64,000 nt of DNA from Flavobacteriales bacterium (lineage in GTDB: Bacteria; Bacteroidota; Bacteroidia; Flavobacteriales_E; Vicingaceae). The notes beneath the pieces were generated by a model. That model did no database searches. It was not told the DNA's origin and saw nothing but the letters and a program-made list of their open reading frames with translations. The stretch spans positions 62,001 through 126,000 of the forward strand of contig JABTUP010000004.1 in the NCBI GenBank assembly GCA_015075325.1, written 5' to 3'. Position numbers and translations under genes: made by a program. This document shows positions 27,517-35,391 of this stretch, one piece after another. Each line of letters opens with the position of its first letter. Position 1 is the first letter of the stretch.

Positions 27517-28683
27517 CTACCTCAACGCTTGTTCAATATCGGCAATAATATCGTTGATGTGTTCTAAGCCCACCGAAACCCGAATTAAGCCGGGCAATAT
27601 GCCAGTTTCTAATCGTTCTTGTTCGGTAAGTTTGCTGTGTGTGGTAGAGGCTGGGTGTGTGGCTATGCTTCGGGTGTCGCCCAAGTTTGCCGACATCGAA
27701 ATCATCTGCAATTGGTTTAAAAATTGTCGCCCTTTTTCTAAGCCTCCTTTTACATTAAAACTTACCATTCCGCCACCGGCTTTCATTTGTTTTTTGGCAA
27801 TTTGGTATTGTGGGTGCGATGGCAAAAAGGGGTATTTTACCCATTCCACTTCGGGGTGTTGTTCCAACCATTGGGCAAGTTTTAGGGCATTTTCGGAGTG
27901 TCTGTCCATACGTACCGCAAGGGTTTCTAAACTTTTAGACAATATCCAAGCATTAAATGGCGAAAGTGCTGGTCCCGAATGTCGGGCAAAAGCTTTTATG
28001 TCGGTAATCAATTCTTTTTTTCCTGCAATTAATCCGCCCAACACACGCCCTTGTCCGTCGATGTATTTGGTTGCCGAATGAATAACCAAATGGGCTCCAT
28101 ACTTAATGGGTTGTTGCAAGTATGGGGTTGCAAAACAATTGTCGACCAACAACAACAGTTGGTGTTGTTGTGCAAAATTGCCGAGCCATTCCAAATCTAA
28201 AATGTCAATTCCCGGATTGGTTGGGGTTTCAATAAACAATATTTTGGTGTTGGGTGTTACAGCATTTTTCCAGTTTTGGGTATCGTTGGCATCAACATAG
28301 CTGTGAGTAATGCCCCATTTGGGAAGTAATTTGGTTAGCACCGTGTGTGTAGAACCAAATATTGAGCGGCAAGCCAACACATGGTCGCCTTGTTTTAGCA
28401 AAGCTGCCAAACTGGTAAAAACCGCAGCCATGCCAGTAGCCGTTGCCCAGCCAGCTTCGGCACCTTCGAGCAAACAAATTTTATCAATTAGCTCGGTAGT
28501 ATTGGGGTTTGAGTAGCGACTGTAAATGTTACCTTCTTGCTCGTCGGCAAACAAGGCACGCATTTGCTCGGCATCATCAAAAACAAAGCTGGATGTTAAA
28601 TGTAGTGCGGTAGAATGTTCGTTGTATTGCGAATGTTCGTTTTGTGTTCTTATGGCTTGTGTTTCAAAGTTTTTGAAGTTCAT
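27517..28683 (-). CDS. metZ: O-succinylhomoserine sulfhydrylase-type trans-sulfuration enzyme
   Basis: 388 residues from ATG 28683 (a longer frame to 28701 adds six residues). Cys/Met metabolism PLP fold: SRYSNPNTTELIDKICLLEG, the PLP lysine in VIHSATKYIDGQGRVLGGL, and TRSIATHPASTTHSKLTEQE. It condenses an activated homoserine with sulfide, or acts as a gamma-synthase; MetZ is the closest pattern, and MetB is the alternative. It is the last gene of the sulfur cluster, on the same strand as cysH and metX/metY. Confidence 0.85.
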   Translation of the reverse strand: MNFKNFETQAIRTQNEHSQYNEHSTALHLTSSFVFDDAEQMRALFADEQEGNIYSRYSNPNTTELIDKICLLEGAEAGWATATGMAAVFTSLAALLKQGDHVLACRSIFGSTHTVLTKLLPKWGITHSYVDANDTQNWKNAVTPNTKILFIETPTNPGIDILDLEWLGNFAQQHQLLLLVDNCFATPYLQQPIKYGAHLVIHSATKYIDGQGRVLGGLIAGKKELITDIKAFARHSGPALSPFNAWILSKSLETLAVRMDRHSENALKLAQWLEQHPEVEWVKYPFLPSHPQYQIAKKQMKAGGGMVSFNVKGGLEKGRQFLNQLQMISMSANLGDTRSIATHPASTTHSKLTEQERLETGILPGLIRVSVGLEHINDIIADIEQALR

Positions 28684-28700
28684 CTTATTTTTATAAAACA

Positions 28701-28722
28701 CTTCGACAGGCTCAGTGTGACA
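28701..28722. repeat. Dispersed CTTCGACAGGCTCAGTGTGA element
   Basis: A short sequence frequent between genes in Bacteroidota genomes, here directly upstream of the metZ-like start. TGACGAAG follows at 28733-28740 and can pair with its first bases. Confidence 0.45.
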
Positions 28723-30276: not shown

Positions 30277-31122
30277 TTACAAATGTAATCCACACTCGGT
30301 TTTAGGACTGTTGTTCCAGCGGCCTTCTCGCCCTTCGCCTGGCACTGTGCAATGTTTGCATCCAATAGAAAAATACCCTTTTGCTATTAATGGATGAAAA
30401 GGCAAATCGTTTTTTTTAATGTATGCTTCACGTTCTTCTTTGGTAACATCTAAAAGCGGATAAAATTTTAAAATTCCACCACGGTCTTCAAAAATATCGA
30501 GCGATGAACGGTGATCGCTTTGCCATTTCATTAGCCCCGAAACCCAAACCGTATAGTTTTCTTTAATTATTTCCAACGGTTTTACTTTGTTTATCGAGCA
30601 ACACAAATCGGGGTCTTTTTTCCATGTTTCATCTTTTGTGGTAAAATCGTGTTCCCATTTTTCGGCAGTAACATCTTCTACCTTTAACCCATACAATTGG
30701 GTGAGTTGTTCTTTGTAAGCTAAAGTTTCGTCAAAATGATAACCTGTATTGATAAAATATATTTTTTGCTCGGGATTTATTTTAGAAAACACACGCAACA
30801 AAAATGCTGAAGTAGCAGCAAATGATGAAGTTAGCATAATTTCGTTGGCAGCAAAATCCTTGTATAATTCTTCTATTCTTTCGGTTACCGAAAGGGCACG
30901 GTATTTTTGGTTTAAGGCTTTTATTTCAAGCTCAGTAAATGTTCGTTTAATTTGTTCCAATACAATACTTTTTTTGGTTTCAAAAGGAATCGACGAAATT
31001 GATGTTTTCTTTTTACTTTTTAGCTGATGAAAATCATTCCACTTCGTTTTTTTTGAAAATGTGTTTTCATTTTTTTTGAAGCAACTAAAGTACGCAATAT
31101 TGTTTGTTTTAACTAAATACAT
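30277..31122 (-). CDS. cysH: Phosphoadenylyl/adenylyl-sulfate reductase
   Basis: 281 residues in the longest form. Adenine nucleotide alpha hydrolase fold: TSSFAATSAFLLRVFSKI near residue 98, INTGYHFDETL, the DLCCSINKVKPL Cys pair, SIGCKHCT and the tail ECGLHL. The CC...CxxC set binds a [4Fe-4S] cluster, so APS rather than PAPS is the likely substrate, giving sulfite. The first ~65 residues are Lys/Ser-rich and not seen in the family; a TTG at 30960 (residue 55) is an alternative start that gives a standard length. It overlaps nothing and lies 12 bp after the homoserine dehydrogenase gene. Confidence 0.9.
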   Translation of the reverse strand: MYLVKTNNIAYFSCFKKNENTFSKKTKWNDFHQLKSKKKTSISSIPFETKKSIVLEQIKRTFTELEIKALNQKYRALSVTERIEELYKDFAANEIMLTSSFAATSAFLLRVFSKINPEQKIYFINTGYHFDETLAYKEQLTQLYGLKVEDVTAEKWEHDFTTKDETWKKDPDLCCSINKVKPLEIIKENYTVWVSGLMKWQSDHRSSLDIFEDRGGILKFYPLLDVTKEEREAYIKKNDLPFHPLIAKGYFSIGCKHCTVPGEGREGRWNNSPKTECGLHL

Positions 31123-31134
31123 CGGCTAACTTTT

Positions 31135-32352
31135 TTAAGCATAAACCAATTGTATTTTATGTTTTAACTGTAAAAACAATTTTTGTTTTACATTTTCGCT
31201 TAGTGCAATAACCGAAACTTGGTGTAGGTTTAACAAGTCTTTGGCTTTAATTAAATCGGCAATTTTAATGCTTCCGTAACCTTGAGGACCGTTGAGCAAA
31301 ACAACGTCTTCCAAGTATTTTTCGAGCAGCGTAATTTTGTTGGAATACACCCAAATACTTTCTTTTGTTTCGTATTTCAATCGTTTGCCCGACGGAACAT
31401 GTTGGTAAGTATAAGTTGTTTTTTCTACGTTTTGGTAATCAGAAAAAACGACGTGTCCGGTTGGTAGTTTACCCGCACCTTTGCCTTTGAAAAACTGCGA
31501 ACCAATGTTTTTTGAAACAACTTCAACACCATTAAATTCATTTTTGATGTGAAACAAATCGTCGTTTTCGTCAACAAAAGTGGGCAAAACGCTTAACGTA
31601 AGTTTGTTGTTGTGGCTTTTTGCCGAAGCAACCAATTTTATTTTTAAGTTGTTTGCTTTTGCAAAATTAATGTCGCTGTTTTTAAGGTTATTAATGCCAA
31701 TGTTTAAAGCTTTTTCGGGAGTAATAAACTTGCCAAAAGCATGTGTGGTAAGAATTAACAATTTGTACAACGCATCAAAACCTTCAACATCGGCAGCAGG
31801 ATTAGCCTCTGCAAAACCTGCTTGTTGTGCTTGGTGTAATGCCTCTTGGTAACCAATTCCTTTTTCAAAAACTTGAGTTAAAACGTAGTTTGATGTGCCG
31901 TTTAAAATGCCTCGTATTTCAGTAATTTCATCAAAAGCATAATGCTCGTTAATTATTTTTATTATCGGAATACTTCCAGCAACAGCTCCTTCGTACAAAA
32001 ATTTTCCGCCAAATTGTTGCTCCAATTCTACCAACTCCTCCAAGTGATGGGCAATCATTTTTTTGTTGGAAGAAATTACTTTTTTACCTTGCTCTAATGC
32101 ATTTTTTACGATGTTAAAGGCTTCCTTGTAGTCGCTAATGAGTTCCACAACAGTGTTAATTTGGTTGTTTTGGAAAACATCATTTACATTGGTTGTAAAA
32201 TTTAGGTTGTCTGGAATTCTGCTTTTCGAAGCATTTTTTATAACAATGGTAGCCAATTGTTTATCATTATTGTTTTCTGCCAAATAATGGTAAAACCCCT
32301 GACCAACAGTTCCAAAACCGAATAATGCGGTATGTTTAGTTTGCGTACTCAT
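31135..32352 (-). CDS. hom: Homoserine dehydrogenase
   Basis: 405 residues. N-terminal Rossmann FGFGTVGQGFYHYLAE, catalytic-domain segments VISSNKKMIAHHLEELVELE and YEGAVAGSIPIIKIINEHYA, GILNGTSNYVLTQ, and AGFAEANPAADVEGFDALYK, the homoserine dehydrogenase signature. It reduces aspartate semialdehyde to homoserine, the branch point for Met and Thr. There is no aspartokinase domain. Its start overlaps the end of metX by 17 bp, so the two are translationally coupled in the methionine cluster. Confidence 0.93.
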   Translation of the reverse strand: MSTQTKHTALFGFGTVGQGFYHYLAENNNDKQLATIVIKNASKSRIPDNLNFTTNVNDVFQNNQINTVVELISDYKEAFNIVKNALEQGKKVISSNKKMIAHHLEELVELEQQFGGKFLYEGAVAGSIPIIKIINEHYAFDEITEIRGILNGTSNYVLTQVFEKGIGYQEALHQAQQAGFAEANPAADVEGFDALYKLLILTTHAFGKFITPEKALNIGINNLKNSDINFAKANNLKIKLVASAKSHNNKLTLSVLPTFVDENDDLFHIKNEFNGVEVVSKNIGSQFFKGKGAGKLPTGHVVFSDYQNVEKTTYTYQHVPSGKRLKYETKESIWVYSNKITLLEKYLEDVVLLNGPQGYGSIKIADLIKAKDLLNLHQVSVIALSENVKQKLFLQLKHKIQLVYA

Positions 32353-33385
32353 AAAGTTCTTTTTTTAATTTTTGGTTGATGTAAAAATTTTCAAACAGGG
32401 TTACCAATTGCTGTGTTTCAATTAAAAAACCATCGTGACCGTAAAGAGAATGAAGAATTGAGAATTGAGAATGAGGAATTTTGTTTGCTAACAATTCAGA
32501 TTCAGCAACAGGAAACAATACATCGGAACTGATGCCAACCACTAGTGTTTTTGCTTTTATTTTACTTAAGGCAGCGGTTATTCCGCCTCTGTTTCGCCCC
32601 ACATGATGGCTGTCCATTGCTTTTGATAAATACCAGTACGAAAAAGTATTAAAACGATTTACCAATTTTTCACCTTGGTAATTTTGGTAAGAAGAAGCAT
32701 TAAAATTGTCCGTTTTTTCTTCCAAATCTTCTTGCGAAACCTGATAGGTTTGATAGTTACGATAACTCAACAAAGCAATTGCTCGTGCTGCTTTTAAGCC
32801 TTTCAATCCAGCATCATCGCTGTACGAAAACCACGTTCGGTCGGCTTTTATTGCCAACCGTTGCGTTTCGTTAAAAGCAATTCCCCATGGCGAATGTTGA
32901 GCATTGGTTGCAATTAAAAACAGGTTTTTGATTAAATTGGGTTGTTGTATTGCCCATTCCACCGCTTGTTGTCCTCCCAACGAACCTCCCAACAACGTAT
33001 GAATACGTGTAATTTTGAGGTGTTGACGAAGTAATTCTAACGCTGCAACAATATCTCTGATAGTTATTTCAGGAAAGTTGTGGTAATATTTATTGCCTGT
33101 TTTTGGATTTACCGATAACGGATTGGTTGAACCATAAGGAGAACCCAAAACATTTGCACAAATAATAAAATGTGTTTCAGGATTGTAAAACTTGCCTTTG
33201 CCTACCAAACCATTCCACCACTCTTCGGGGTTGGAGTTGGCTGTGAATGCGTGTGTAATCCAAATTACATTGTTTTTTGCCGCATTTAATTTGCCCAAAG
33301 TGGTATAACCCAATTGGAATTCAGGAAGCGATTTTCCTGATTCCAATTGAAAGGGTTTGTTGTATTTAAAAAATTGTAGGTTCAT
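32336..33385 (-). CDS. metX: Homoserine O-acetyltransferase
   Basis: 349 residues, alpha/beta hydrolase: LGYTTLGKLNAAKNNVIWIT, the nucleophile elbow LLGGSLGGQQAVEWAIQQP (Ser in GGSLGG), VGISSDVLFPVAESE with the Asp, and LYGHDGFLIETQQL with the His. MetX activates homoserine with an acyl group, usually acetyl, for direct sulfhydrylation by MetY. It lies between metY and hom on the minus strand, 110 bp below the metY stop. Confidence 0.93.
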   Translation of the reverse strand: MNLQFFKYNKPFQLESGKSLPEFQLGYTTLGKLNAAKNNVIWITHAFTANSNPEEWWNGLVGKGKFYNPETHFIICANVLGSPYGSTNPLSVNPKTGNKYYHNFPEITIRDIVAALELLRQHLKITRIHTLLGGSLGGQQAVEWAIQQPNLIKNLFLIATNAQHSPWGIAFNETQRLAIKADRTWFSYSDDAGLKGLKAARAIALLSYRNYQTYQVSQEDLEEKTDNFNASSYQNYQGEKLVNRFNTFSYWYLSKAMDSHHVGRNRGGITAALSKIKAKTLVVGISSDVLFPVAESELLANKIPHSQFSILHSLYGHDGFLIETQQLVTLFENFYINQKLKKELYEYAN

Positions 33386-33495: not shown

Positions 33496-34851
<1,356 letters not shown>

Positions 34852-34853
34852 TT

Positions 34854-34920
34854 AATTGATAATTGATAATTGATAATTGATAATTGATAATTGATAATTG
34901 ATAATTGATAATTGATAATT
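34854..34920. repeat. 7-bp tandem repeat (AATTGAT) x 9.6 just upstream of metY
   Basis: Nine full AATTGAT units plus AATT, without a single mismatch, ending 14 bases before the metY ATG (minus strand unit ATCAATT). It is in the 5' untranslated region, so copy-number change would alter leader spacing or structure rather than reading frame. Confidence 0.95.
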
Positions 34921-35009
34921 TTTTTGATAGATTTTAAAGAGCATGGGAGTTCCTTTCGGAAAACCTACACCTTTAAATTTCGAGAAATGTTAACGGAAAT
35001 AAAGATGTA

Positions 35010-35189
35010 TTAACACATGCAGCAGCACATGCAACACATCATCATTACTGAAGATAATTCAGTAAAAAAGCTGGAAGACCGAACCCCGATAGCTATCGGG
35101 AGGAAGTCCGAAGTAATCACTTTTCTAAGATTTGAAAATCTCTCGGATTTGTTGTTTTGATTGTTTGTTTTTGTTTTCATTTTTGTCAT
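35010..35189 (-). CDS. Met/Cys-rich leader peptide upstream of metY
   Basis: 59 codons from ATG 35189, or 56 from ATG 35180 in the same frame. Opening MTKMKTKTNNQNNKSERF, a middle SNLRKVITSDFLPIAIG, and the end SSVMMMCCMCCCMC-stop, in which 11 consecutive residues are Met or Cys. The ORF starts three bases after the last P1 nucleotide of the SAM-I riboswitch and ends 170 bases before metY. A run of regulatory codons matching the pathway's products is the mark of an attenuation leader peptide. I recognise no characterised family; function is inferred from position and codon content. The perfect hairpin CCCGATAG/CTATCGGG lies within the ORF. Confidence 0.75.
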   Translation of the reverse strand: MTKMKTKTNNQNNKSERFSNLRKVITSDFLPIAIGVRSSSFFTELSSVMMMCCMCCCMC

Positions 35190-35191
35190 TT

Positions 35192-35319
35192 ATTTATATT
35201 TTCCACGCCTATGGCGTGGTTAGGATTTGGCACCGGTTTTCCAACCACGCCGAAGGCGTGACTTTTAGTTGGTTGCCAGAAGGTCGTAGAGCCTAATCTC
35301 TCGCTTCTTCTTTATAAAT
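35192..35319 (-). promoter_or_regulatory. SAM-I (S-box) riboswitch
   Basis: On the minus strand, P1 pairs ATTTATA (35319-35313) with TATAAAT (35198-35192). P2 is GAAG...AGAG ATTAGG CTCT...CTTC with the kink-turn-like GA region. GGCAACC follows, then P3 (CCAAC...CACGCC TTC GGCGTG GTTGG), the conserved GGTGCCAAATCC, and P4 (CCACGCC ATA GGCGTGG). These are the conserved joins of SAM-I aptamers. The downstream gene, metY, is the expected target. The leader ORF start codon lies right after P1, so ligand binding may hide its ribosome entry site. Confidence 0.85.
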
Positions 35320-35361
35320 CAATCACAAATCTGATAAAGGATAGTGAATTGAATTGCGATG

Positions 35362-35391
35362 CAAATGTAATACAAAAATTTTATATACAAA
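35362..35391 (-). promoter_or_regulatory. Promoter of the metY leader (Bacteroidota type)
   Basis: On the minus strand TTTG (35391-35388), an 18-base spacer and TACATTTG (35369-35362) match the -33 TTTG and -7 TAnnTTTG consensus of the Bacteroidota primary sigma factor. Transcription would begin about 35355, some 35 bases before riboswitch P1. Confidence 0.75.

Follow-up and report, generated by a model that had tools for sequence, protein, structure and literature searches.

A riboswitch and a ribosome-mediated attenuator are commonly seen as alternatives to each other. We describe here a locus in which the two appear to be wired in series, the target of the riboswitch being the sensor open reading frame (ORF) of the attenuator. 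The locus lies in a 64,000-nucleotide (nt) stretch of DNA from Flavobacteriales bacterium (assembly GCA_015075325.1, contig JABTUP010000004.1, positions 62,001 to 126,000; hereafter "the window"), where, reading 5' to 3' on the minus strand from 35391 to 34933, a promoter is followed by a SAM-I (S-adenosylmethionine) aptamer, a leader ORF and a set of mutually exclusive predicted hairpins, and then by the genes metY-metX-hom-cysH. We think it likely that these parts form a two-tier cis-acting sulfur switch, in which the SAM-I aptamer gates a stalling leader that is itself coupled to a trp-type attenuator.

The separate parts have well-described counterparts. With SAM-I (S-box) riboswitches (RF00162) the locus shares the aptamer, the target pathway, the off polarity and the occlusion of a start region by the P1 helix; sequestration of a ribosome-binding site by P1 has been described for some SAM-I switches (PMC2258182), and S-boxes occur in Bacteroidetes (PMC2211319). 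Here, however, the occluded start would be that of a leader ORF and not that of a metabolic gene. With trp-type attenuators it shares a leader ORF carrying codons for the product amino acid and the competing helices 1:2, 2:3 and 3:4; unlike them, it has a riboswitch placed where the leader itself begins, would count Met and Cys together, and has a weak U-tract in the window copy. The polycysteine leader ORFs of mycobacteria (PMC1262725; a further report, Canestrari 2020, is cited in PMC13236596) are likewise short, end in Cys codons and precede sulfur genes, whereas they belong to another phylum and have no riboswitch, and PMC1262725 reports no conserved terminator hairpins for them. We would say by analogy that the present leader may work like the mycobacterial ones, not that it is one of them, as even among Bacteroidota only the codon run is conserved.

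Other described leaders resemble the locus in part. The element uORFC-8-2 before cysS in Rhodobacterales (PMC8632094) has Cys codons in a stem and a second stem with a U-run, and attenuation has been proposed for it, but it has two Cys codons, a tRNA synthetase target and no aptamer; the present loci, with metY/metX/cysH targets, a Bacteroidota distribution and usually at least three Cys codons, were not assigned to it. In the Salmonella mgtA/mgtCBR leaders (PMC3641672) one RNA joins a proposed Mg2+ sensor to a proline-codon ORF, though the signals differ and these leaders are not reported as a riboswitch gating a leader start in sulfur metabolism. The tandem arrangement before Bacillus clausii metE (described in PMC2258182) also pairs SAM-I with another sensor upstream of a Met gene; there, in contrast, the SAM and adenosylcobalamin aptamers work side by side with separate terminators, and no leader peptide is involved. 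Finally, leader-peptide transcription attenuation is suspected in a flavobacterium, Flavobacterium psychrophilum (PMC9723704), although the main text of that paper describes no riboswitch link and no metY case. A search of the open-access literature, with most subscription papers lying outside it, returned no report of a SAM riboswitch combined with a Cys/Met leader, and the serial composite of these separately known parts looks, as such, undescribed.

The leader ORF and its conservation

The elements on which the argument depends are as follows (window coordinates).

35191..35320, minus strand: SAM-I riboswitch aptamer (RF00162, 62.4 bits)
35181..35331, minus strand: predicted extended P1 helix, 5' arm 35331-35313 and 3' arm 35198-35181, ending at the leader ATG at 35180
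35010..35180, minus strand: leader ORF, 56 codons and a stop (59 codons if the ATG at 35189 is used)
35013..35045, minus strand: Met/Cys codon run MMMCCMCCCMC, read from the sequence, with a ratio of nonsynonymous to synonymous differences (pN/pS) of 0.35 in related pairs
34998..35046, minus strand: predicted helix 1:2, the codon run with bases just past the leader stop (window fold; arm-swap p<=0.0005)
34966..35009, minus strand: predicted helix 2:3, the antiterminator, 35009-34996 with 34981-34966 (window fold with a masked ribosome; arm-swap p<=0.0005)
34933..34977, minus strand: predicted hairpin 3:4, terminator-like, with a poor U-tract in the window copy (window fold)

A first-pass annotation of this DNA had placed a promoter, a SAM-I aptamer, an ORF of 56-59 codons ending in MMMCCMCCCMC and a stop, and then metY in this order, and each of these was recovered: the aptamer as an RF00162 match at 35320-35191, the promoter and metY as given further below, and the ORF with 59 residues from the ATG at 35189 or 56 from that at 35180. 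Absent from that annotation were the competing, conserved hairpins that lie between leader and metY (35046-34933) and the further genes behind metY. Its last 11 codons are ATG ATG ATG TGT TGC ATG TGC TGC TGC ATG TGT, followed by TAA. The second ATG (35180) appears to be the better-supported start, because relatives begin with MKTK.. or MNT.. at this point and because the ATG at 35189 lies inside the extended P1. As a separate observation, the leader ORF contains a palindrome, CCCGATAGCTATCGGG (35085-35100), in a segment of some 14 codons missing from the nearest relatives. The palindrome occurs at three places in the genome and may stem from a dispersed repeat that inserted into the leader without shifting its frame.

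The clearest evidence for the leader comes from sites collected without reference to it. In the window's order, represented by 46 genomes of one family, 58 SAM-I sites were chosen by the aptamer alone, 38 of them preceding metH and 20 preceding metY/metX. When a leader was defined as a small ORF whose last 16 residues include four or more Cys, one was present at 18/20 metY/metX sites and at 0/38 metH sites, the latter reaching a maximum of two Cys by the same 16-residue count. Since the sites were picked by aptamer only, the association of the leader with metY/metX does not arise from how the sites were selected. In another family, likewise sampled without selecting for leaders (31 genomes from 25 genera, 70 sites parsed), leaders with at least three terminal Cys were found at 13 of 15 metY sites, 3 of 7 metX sites and 3 of 48 other sites; in the three positive "other" sites the ORF begins more than 100 nt past the aptamer.

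Within the leader, what is kept is the run. Across 22 related leader pairs, some of which share members so that the counts are not fully independent, substitutions at codon positions 1, 2 and 3 numbered 110, 111 and 167, the third position changing most in the codon-position check that the first-pass annotation had proposed. The pN/pS ratio in the body of the same leaders was 0.63, against the lower value listed above for the run, and indels were frame-preserving, alignment artefacts aside. Judged from these comparisons, the Met/Cys run is under purifying selection, and a drifting body with kept terminal codons is the pattern of a leader peptide. A protein homology search with the leader gave its best E value, about 0.016, elsewhere, and its single true match only at E 0.98; because only the run is conserved in the leader protein, searches were routed via the aptamer.

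The extended P1 and the competing hairpins

The RF00162 match scores 62.4 bits (gathering score 44.4; E 4e-12) and is the sole Rfam match in the window, and a search at permissive thresholds found no RNA families other than SAM-I. Past the end of the Rfam model, P1 is predicted to continue towards the leader. In the window the extended duplex has a predicted energy of -9.5 kcal/mol and leaves 0 nt between its last paired base and the ATG at 35180; across 93 loci the median distance from its end to the leader ATG downstream is 2 nt, and in 96% the two lie within 15 nt of each other. When its arms were exchanged between these loci, the energy weakened from -7.55 (native) to -5.51 (swapped; p 0.0005), for a helix that includes the aptamer's own P1. 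The aptamer-leader interval has no space, in the 93 loci, for a terminator or a separate expression platform. P1 would thus couple to the expression platform through an extended helix that reaches the leader start codon, and because this helix ends at the leader ATG with no terminator between, SAM probably gates translation of the leader. A SAM-I aptamer before metH (locus L026), in contrast, is followed directly by a hairpin and T-run, without a leader ORF, and it seems that the same aptamer family uses two different platforms in one genome, one for the metH and one for the metY/metX copies. Within the window's aptamer we also observed two similar hairpins, CACGCC-TTC-GGCGTG (35260-35246) and CCACGCC-ATA-GGCGTGG (35219-35203), which are separate aptamer stems that look as if they were mutual copies.

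Downstream of the leader, segment 3 sits some 30-45 nt past segment 2 in the order and doubles as the 5' arm of 3:4. Covariation was assessed by exchanging arms between 14 dissimilar loci of the order, because a global MAFFT alignment misaligned the metX-type and metY-type arms. Swapping weakened 1:2 from -9.79 to -7.75 kcal/mol and 2:3 from -10.31 to -7.28 kcal/mol (both p<=0.0005), and control segments were not significant. A stalled ribosome was then modelled by masking a 31-nt footprint. With the Cys codons masked, 2:3 rose from 5.1 to 11.7 expected pairs and 3:4 fell from 9.4 to 5.1; with the stop codon masked, 3:4 returned to 9.7. These shifts were larger than when the spacer was dinucleotide-shuffled (Wilcoxon p 0.005, 0.0004 and 0.0004; n=14 after deduplication), and the combined switch score of the window copy was reached by 0/1000 shuffles. 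In a scan of stall sites, positions 39 to 12 nt before the stop, which are the Met/Cys codons, favoured 2:3 on average, and the effect reversed at the stop. As modelled, 1:2 and 2:3 are mutually exclusive and covarying, and make up a trp-type attenuator in the window's order. In the window copy the fold is flipped mainly by stalls on the CCC core and on two codons upstream of the run, varying with the stretch folded; since the flip comes mainly from the CCC core, Cys is better supported than Met as the signal.

Proposed mechanism and its alternatives

In the two-tier switch as we propose it, the extended P1 would cover the leader start region, so that bound SAM blocks translation of the leader (tier 1), and ribosome stalling on the leader's terminal Met/Cys codons would set hairpins 1:2, 2:3 and 3:4 (tier 2). 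At high SAM the untranslated leader would allow 1:2 and 3:4 to form, turning the operon off with the usual SAM-I polarity. At low SAM with charged Cys/Met-tRNA, a ribosome at the stop codon would cover segment 2, so that 3:4 forms and the operon is off or basal. At low SAM with scarce Cys-tRNA, and probably also Met-tRNA, the stalled ribosome would cover segment 1, 2:3 would exclude 3:4, and the metY-metX-hom-cysH genes would be read. SAM binding, leader translation, stalling, termination and the AND logic are what we infer from the models. Of the functional proposals in the first-pass annotation, that of an attenuation leader gained support in the window's order from the covariation of 1:2 and 2:3 and from stall-dependent refolding beyond shuffles, and that of a riboswitch which may control leader translation is consistent with the predicted P1 ending at the start codon. 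Frame and run, on whose persistence these proposals had been staked, are kept in relatives in the window's order, in the second family and in dozens of Bacteroidota loci.

Several results weigh against this scheme. The run is degraded at two of the 20 metY/metX sites in the order (L073 and L078); within the order, exchanging the arms of 3:4 by itself had no significant effect; stalls at the first three Met codons leave the switch unflipped in the window fold; and the folding omits co-transcriptional kinetics and assumes the 31-nt footprint. The window's 3:4 hairpin is almost without a U-tract, and the generic refolding test was not significant at 50 loci outside the order. The last two points bear on the read-out, which could be Rho-dependent termination or translational occlusion in place of intrinsic termination, the leader still sensing Cys/Met-tRNA. 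A further point for such a read-out is found in five Fluviicola-type loci (L117, L163, L175, L223 and L235), where the spacer is about 40 nt and the run AAATGTGTTGT can pair over 11 bp with ACAAYAYATTT directly before the metX ATG; masking the run lowers pairing of this start region from 0.58-0.60 to 0.22-0.35, and these loci are likely, on this modelling, a translational version of the attenuator. For the window's order, however, stalling does not free the main-gene start region (p 0.78), and U-tract hairpins beyond shuffles occur in about half of its members, the window copy not included, and we regard a non-intrinsic read-out as possible but doubtful. The read-out appears, from the folds, less certain than the sensors, particularly in most loci beyond the window's order.

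The two sensors might also be independent, the leader reading Cys/Met-tRNA while the aptamer acts via mRNA stability, Rho access or pausing and not by gating the leader. The support for gating comes from helix geometry, and the double leaders of Salmonella mgtCBR act additively (PMC3641672). Against this, nearly all of the 93 loci have a P1 that reaches the leader start codon, with no room for a separate platform, and metH copies in the same genomes carry a direct terminator instead (L026); we consider independence improbable. More improbable by far is that the product of the ORF has a function of its own as a Cys/Met-rich peptide, such as metal binding, and that the ORF is not a regulatory leader. 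Its run residues are conserved, and such a tail could bind Cu(I) or Zn, but the body drifts, the kept feature is the place of the run relative to the stop together with the hairpins, and in our samples the ORF lies only between an S-box and Met/Cys genes, with a codon content that tracks the operon. Although AT-rich leaders commonly hold short ORFs, a chance ORF behind an ordinary SAM-I riboswitch is refuted by conservation, namely by the contrast between metY/metX and metH sites, the second family and selection on the run, and we give it next to no credence. The two-tier switch remains the reading that we prefer. Beyond this locus, we incline towards a widespread Bacteroidota AND gate for low SAM and scarce charged Cys/Met-tRNA, in which the read-out varies by lineage (a terminator in the window's order, occlusion of the ribosome-binding site in Fluviicola-type loci) and both sensors are kept.

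Distribution, operon and meaning

The first-pass annotation had suggested a search of other Bacteroidota for S-boxes followed by ORFs with terminal Met/Cys runs before met/cys genes, and many loci were found. When GTDB species genomes were scanned at the DNA level for an aptamer core and a CysCysCys codon run, at least 118 stretches were returned; among the matches listed, at least 78 by our approximate count are true aptamer-leader loci, nearly all in records with Bacteroidota titles. Carriers among the matches listed include Lewinella cohaerens DSM 23179 and Thermoflexibacter ruber DSM 9560, as well as metagenome bins labelled Saprospiraceae, Haliscomenobacter, Crocinitomicaceae, Fluviicola and others. 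Matches without an aptamer or a proper leader, mostly non-Bacteroidota, were dropped, and a class-wide one-gap pattern was rejected as giving mostly chance matches. Rfam confirmed the SAM-I aptamer in 14/15 representative loci. The at least 95 distinct leader peptides pooled from the GTDB scan and the class search, which were partly selected by the CysCysCys pattern, are 30-56 residues long, and their Cys are concentrated at the end, about 6 among the final 14 residues and hardly any earlier; the leaders collected use TGT (292) and TGC (281) equally.

Thermoflexibacter ruber DSM 9560 has two loci (L204 and L207), each with a SAM-I aptamer and a leader that closes on six or seven Cys; neither run contains Met. 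By our reading of the translations, they precede cysH-cysD-cysN-type genes and a sulfite-reductase operon. The runs of two further cysH loci are also pure Cys. In three Sediminibacterium/Chitinophagaceae loci (L129, L156 and L209), SAM-I precedes a cystathionine gamma-synthase-like gene and the spacer holds a short CysCysCys stretch that is weak and outside the usual position. We would also like to note that L163 (CP034120.1), titled Glaciecola amylolytica, and L160 (CALPRR020000053.1), titled Candidatus Kuenenia, resemble Crocinitomicaceae-type Bacteroidota loci, and that these record titles are probably wrong.

The remaining features of the window locus, all on the minus strand, are the promoter and the genes.

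35362..35391, minus strand: promoter TTTG-N18-TACATTTG, read from the sequence
33496..34839, minus strand: metY, O-acetylhomoserine sulfhydrylase (TIGR01326, 675.6 bits)
32336..33385, minus strand: metX-type homoserine O-acetyltransferase (TIGR01392, 327.7 bits; under the cut-off of 500, yet the best family)
31135..32352, minus strand: hom, homoserine dehydrogenase (PF00742; NF004976, 304.3 bits)
30277..31122, minus strand: cysH, phosphoadenylyl-sulfate (PAPS) reductase (NF002537, 204.9 bits; PF01507)
27517..28701, minus strand: metZ-type O-succinylhomoserine sulfhydrylase (NF006003, 523.4 bits)

The promoter, with TTTG at 35391-35388, an 18-nt gap and TACATTTG at 35369-35362, matches the flavobacterial sigma-A element TAnnTTTG (PMC9723704) and reads as Bacteroidota-type; TAnnTTTG lies 5' of 69/93 homologous aptamers against a background of 8%. 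The spacer from the leader stop to metY is 170 nt. Between the attenuator and metY the 7-base unit TAATTGA is perfectly repeated in tandem (34853-34920, 9.7 copies), an array that is missing from the relatives whose sequence was read. After metY the same-strand order is metX-hom-cysH, two genes that we read, from weak family matches, as YeeE/YedE-like, an OsmC-like gene and metZ, the last gene of the probable operon. The transcript probably serves both methionine synthesis and sulfate reduction for cysteine, and a leader that counts both Met and Cys fits an operon of this scope.

The apparent series wiring is conserved in two unselected families and in many further Bacteroidota loci. Why cells need both SAM and charged-tRNA sensing could be tested in the cultured Lewinella cohaerens and Thermoflexibacter ruber. 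In these lineages, a small gene missed by annotation is to be expected after S-boxes that precede metX/metY.
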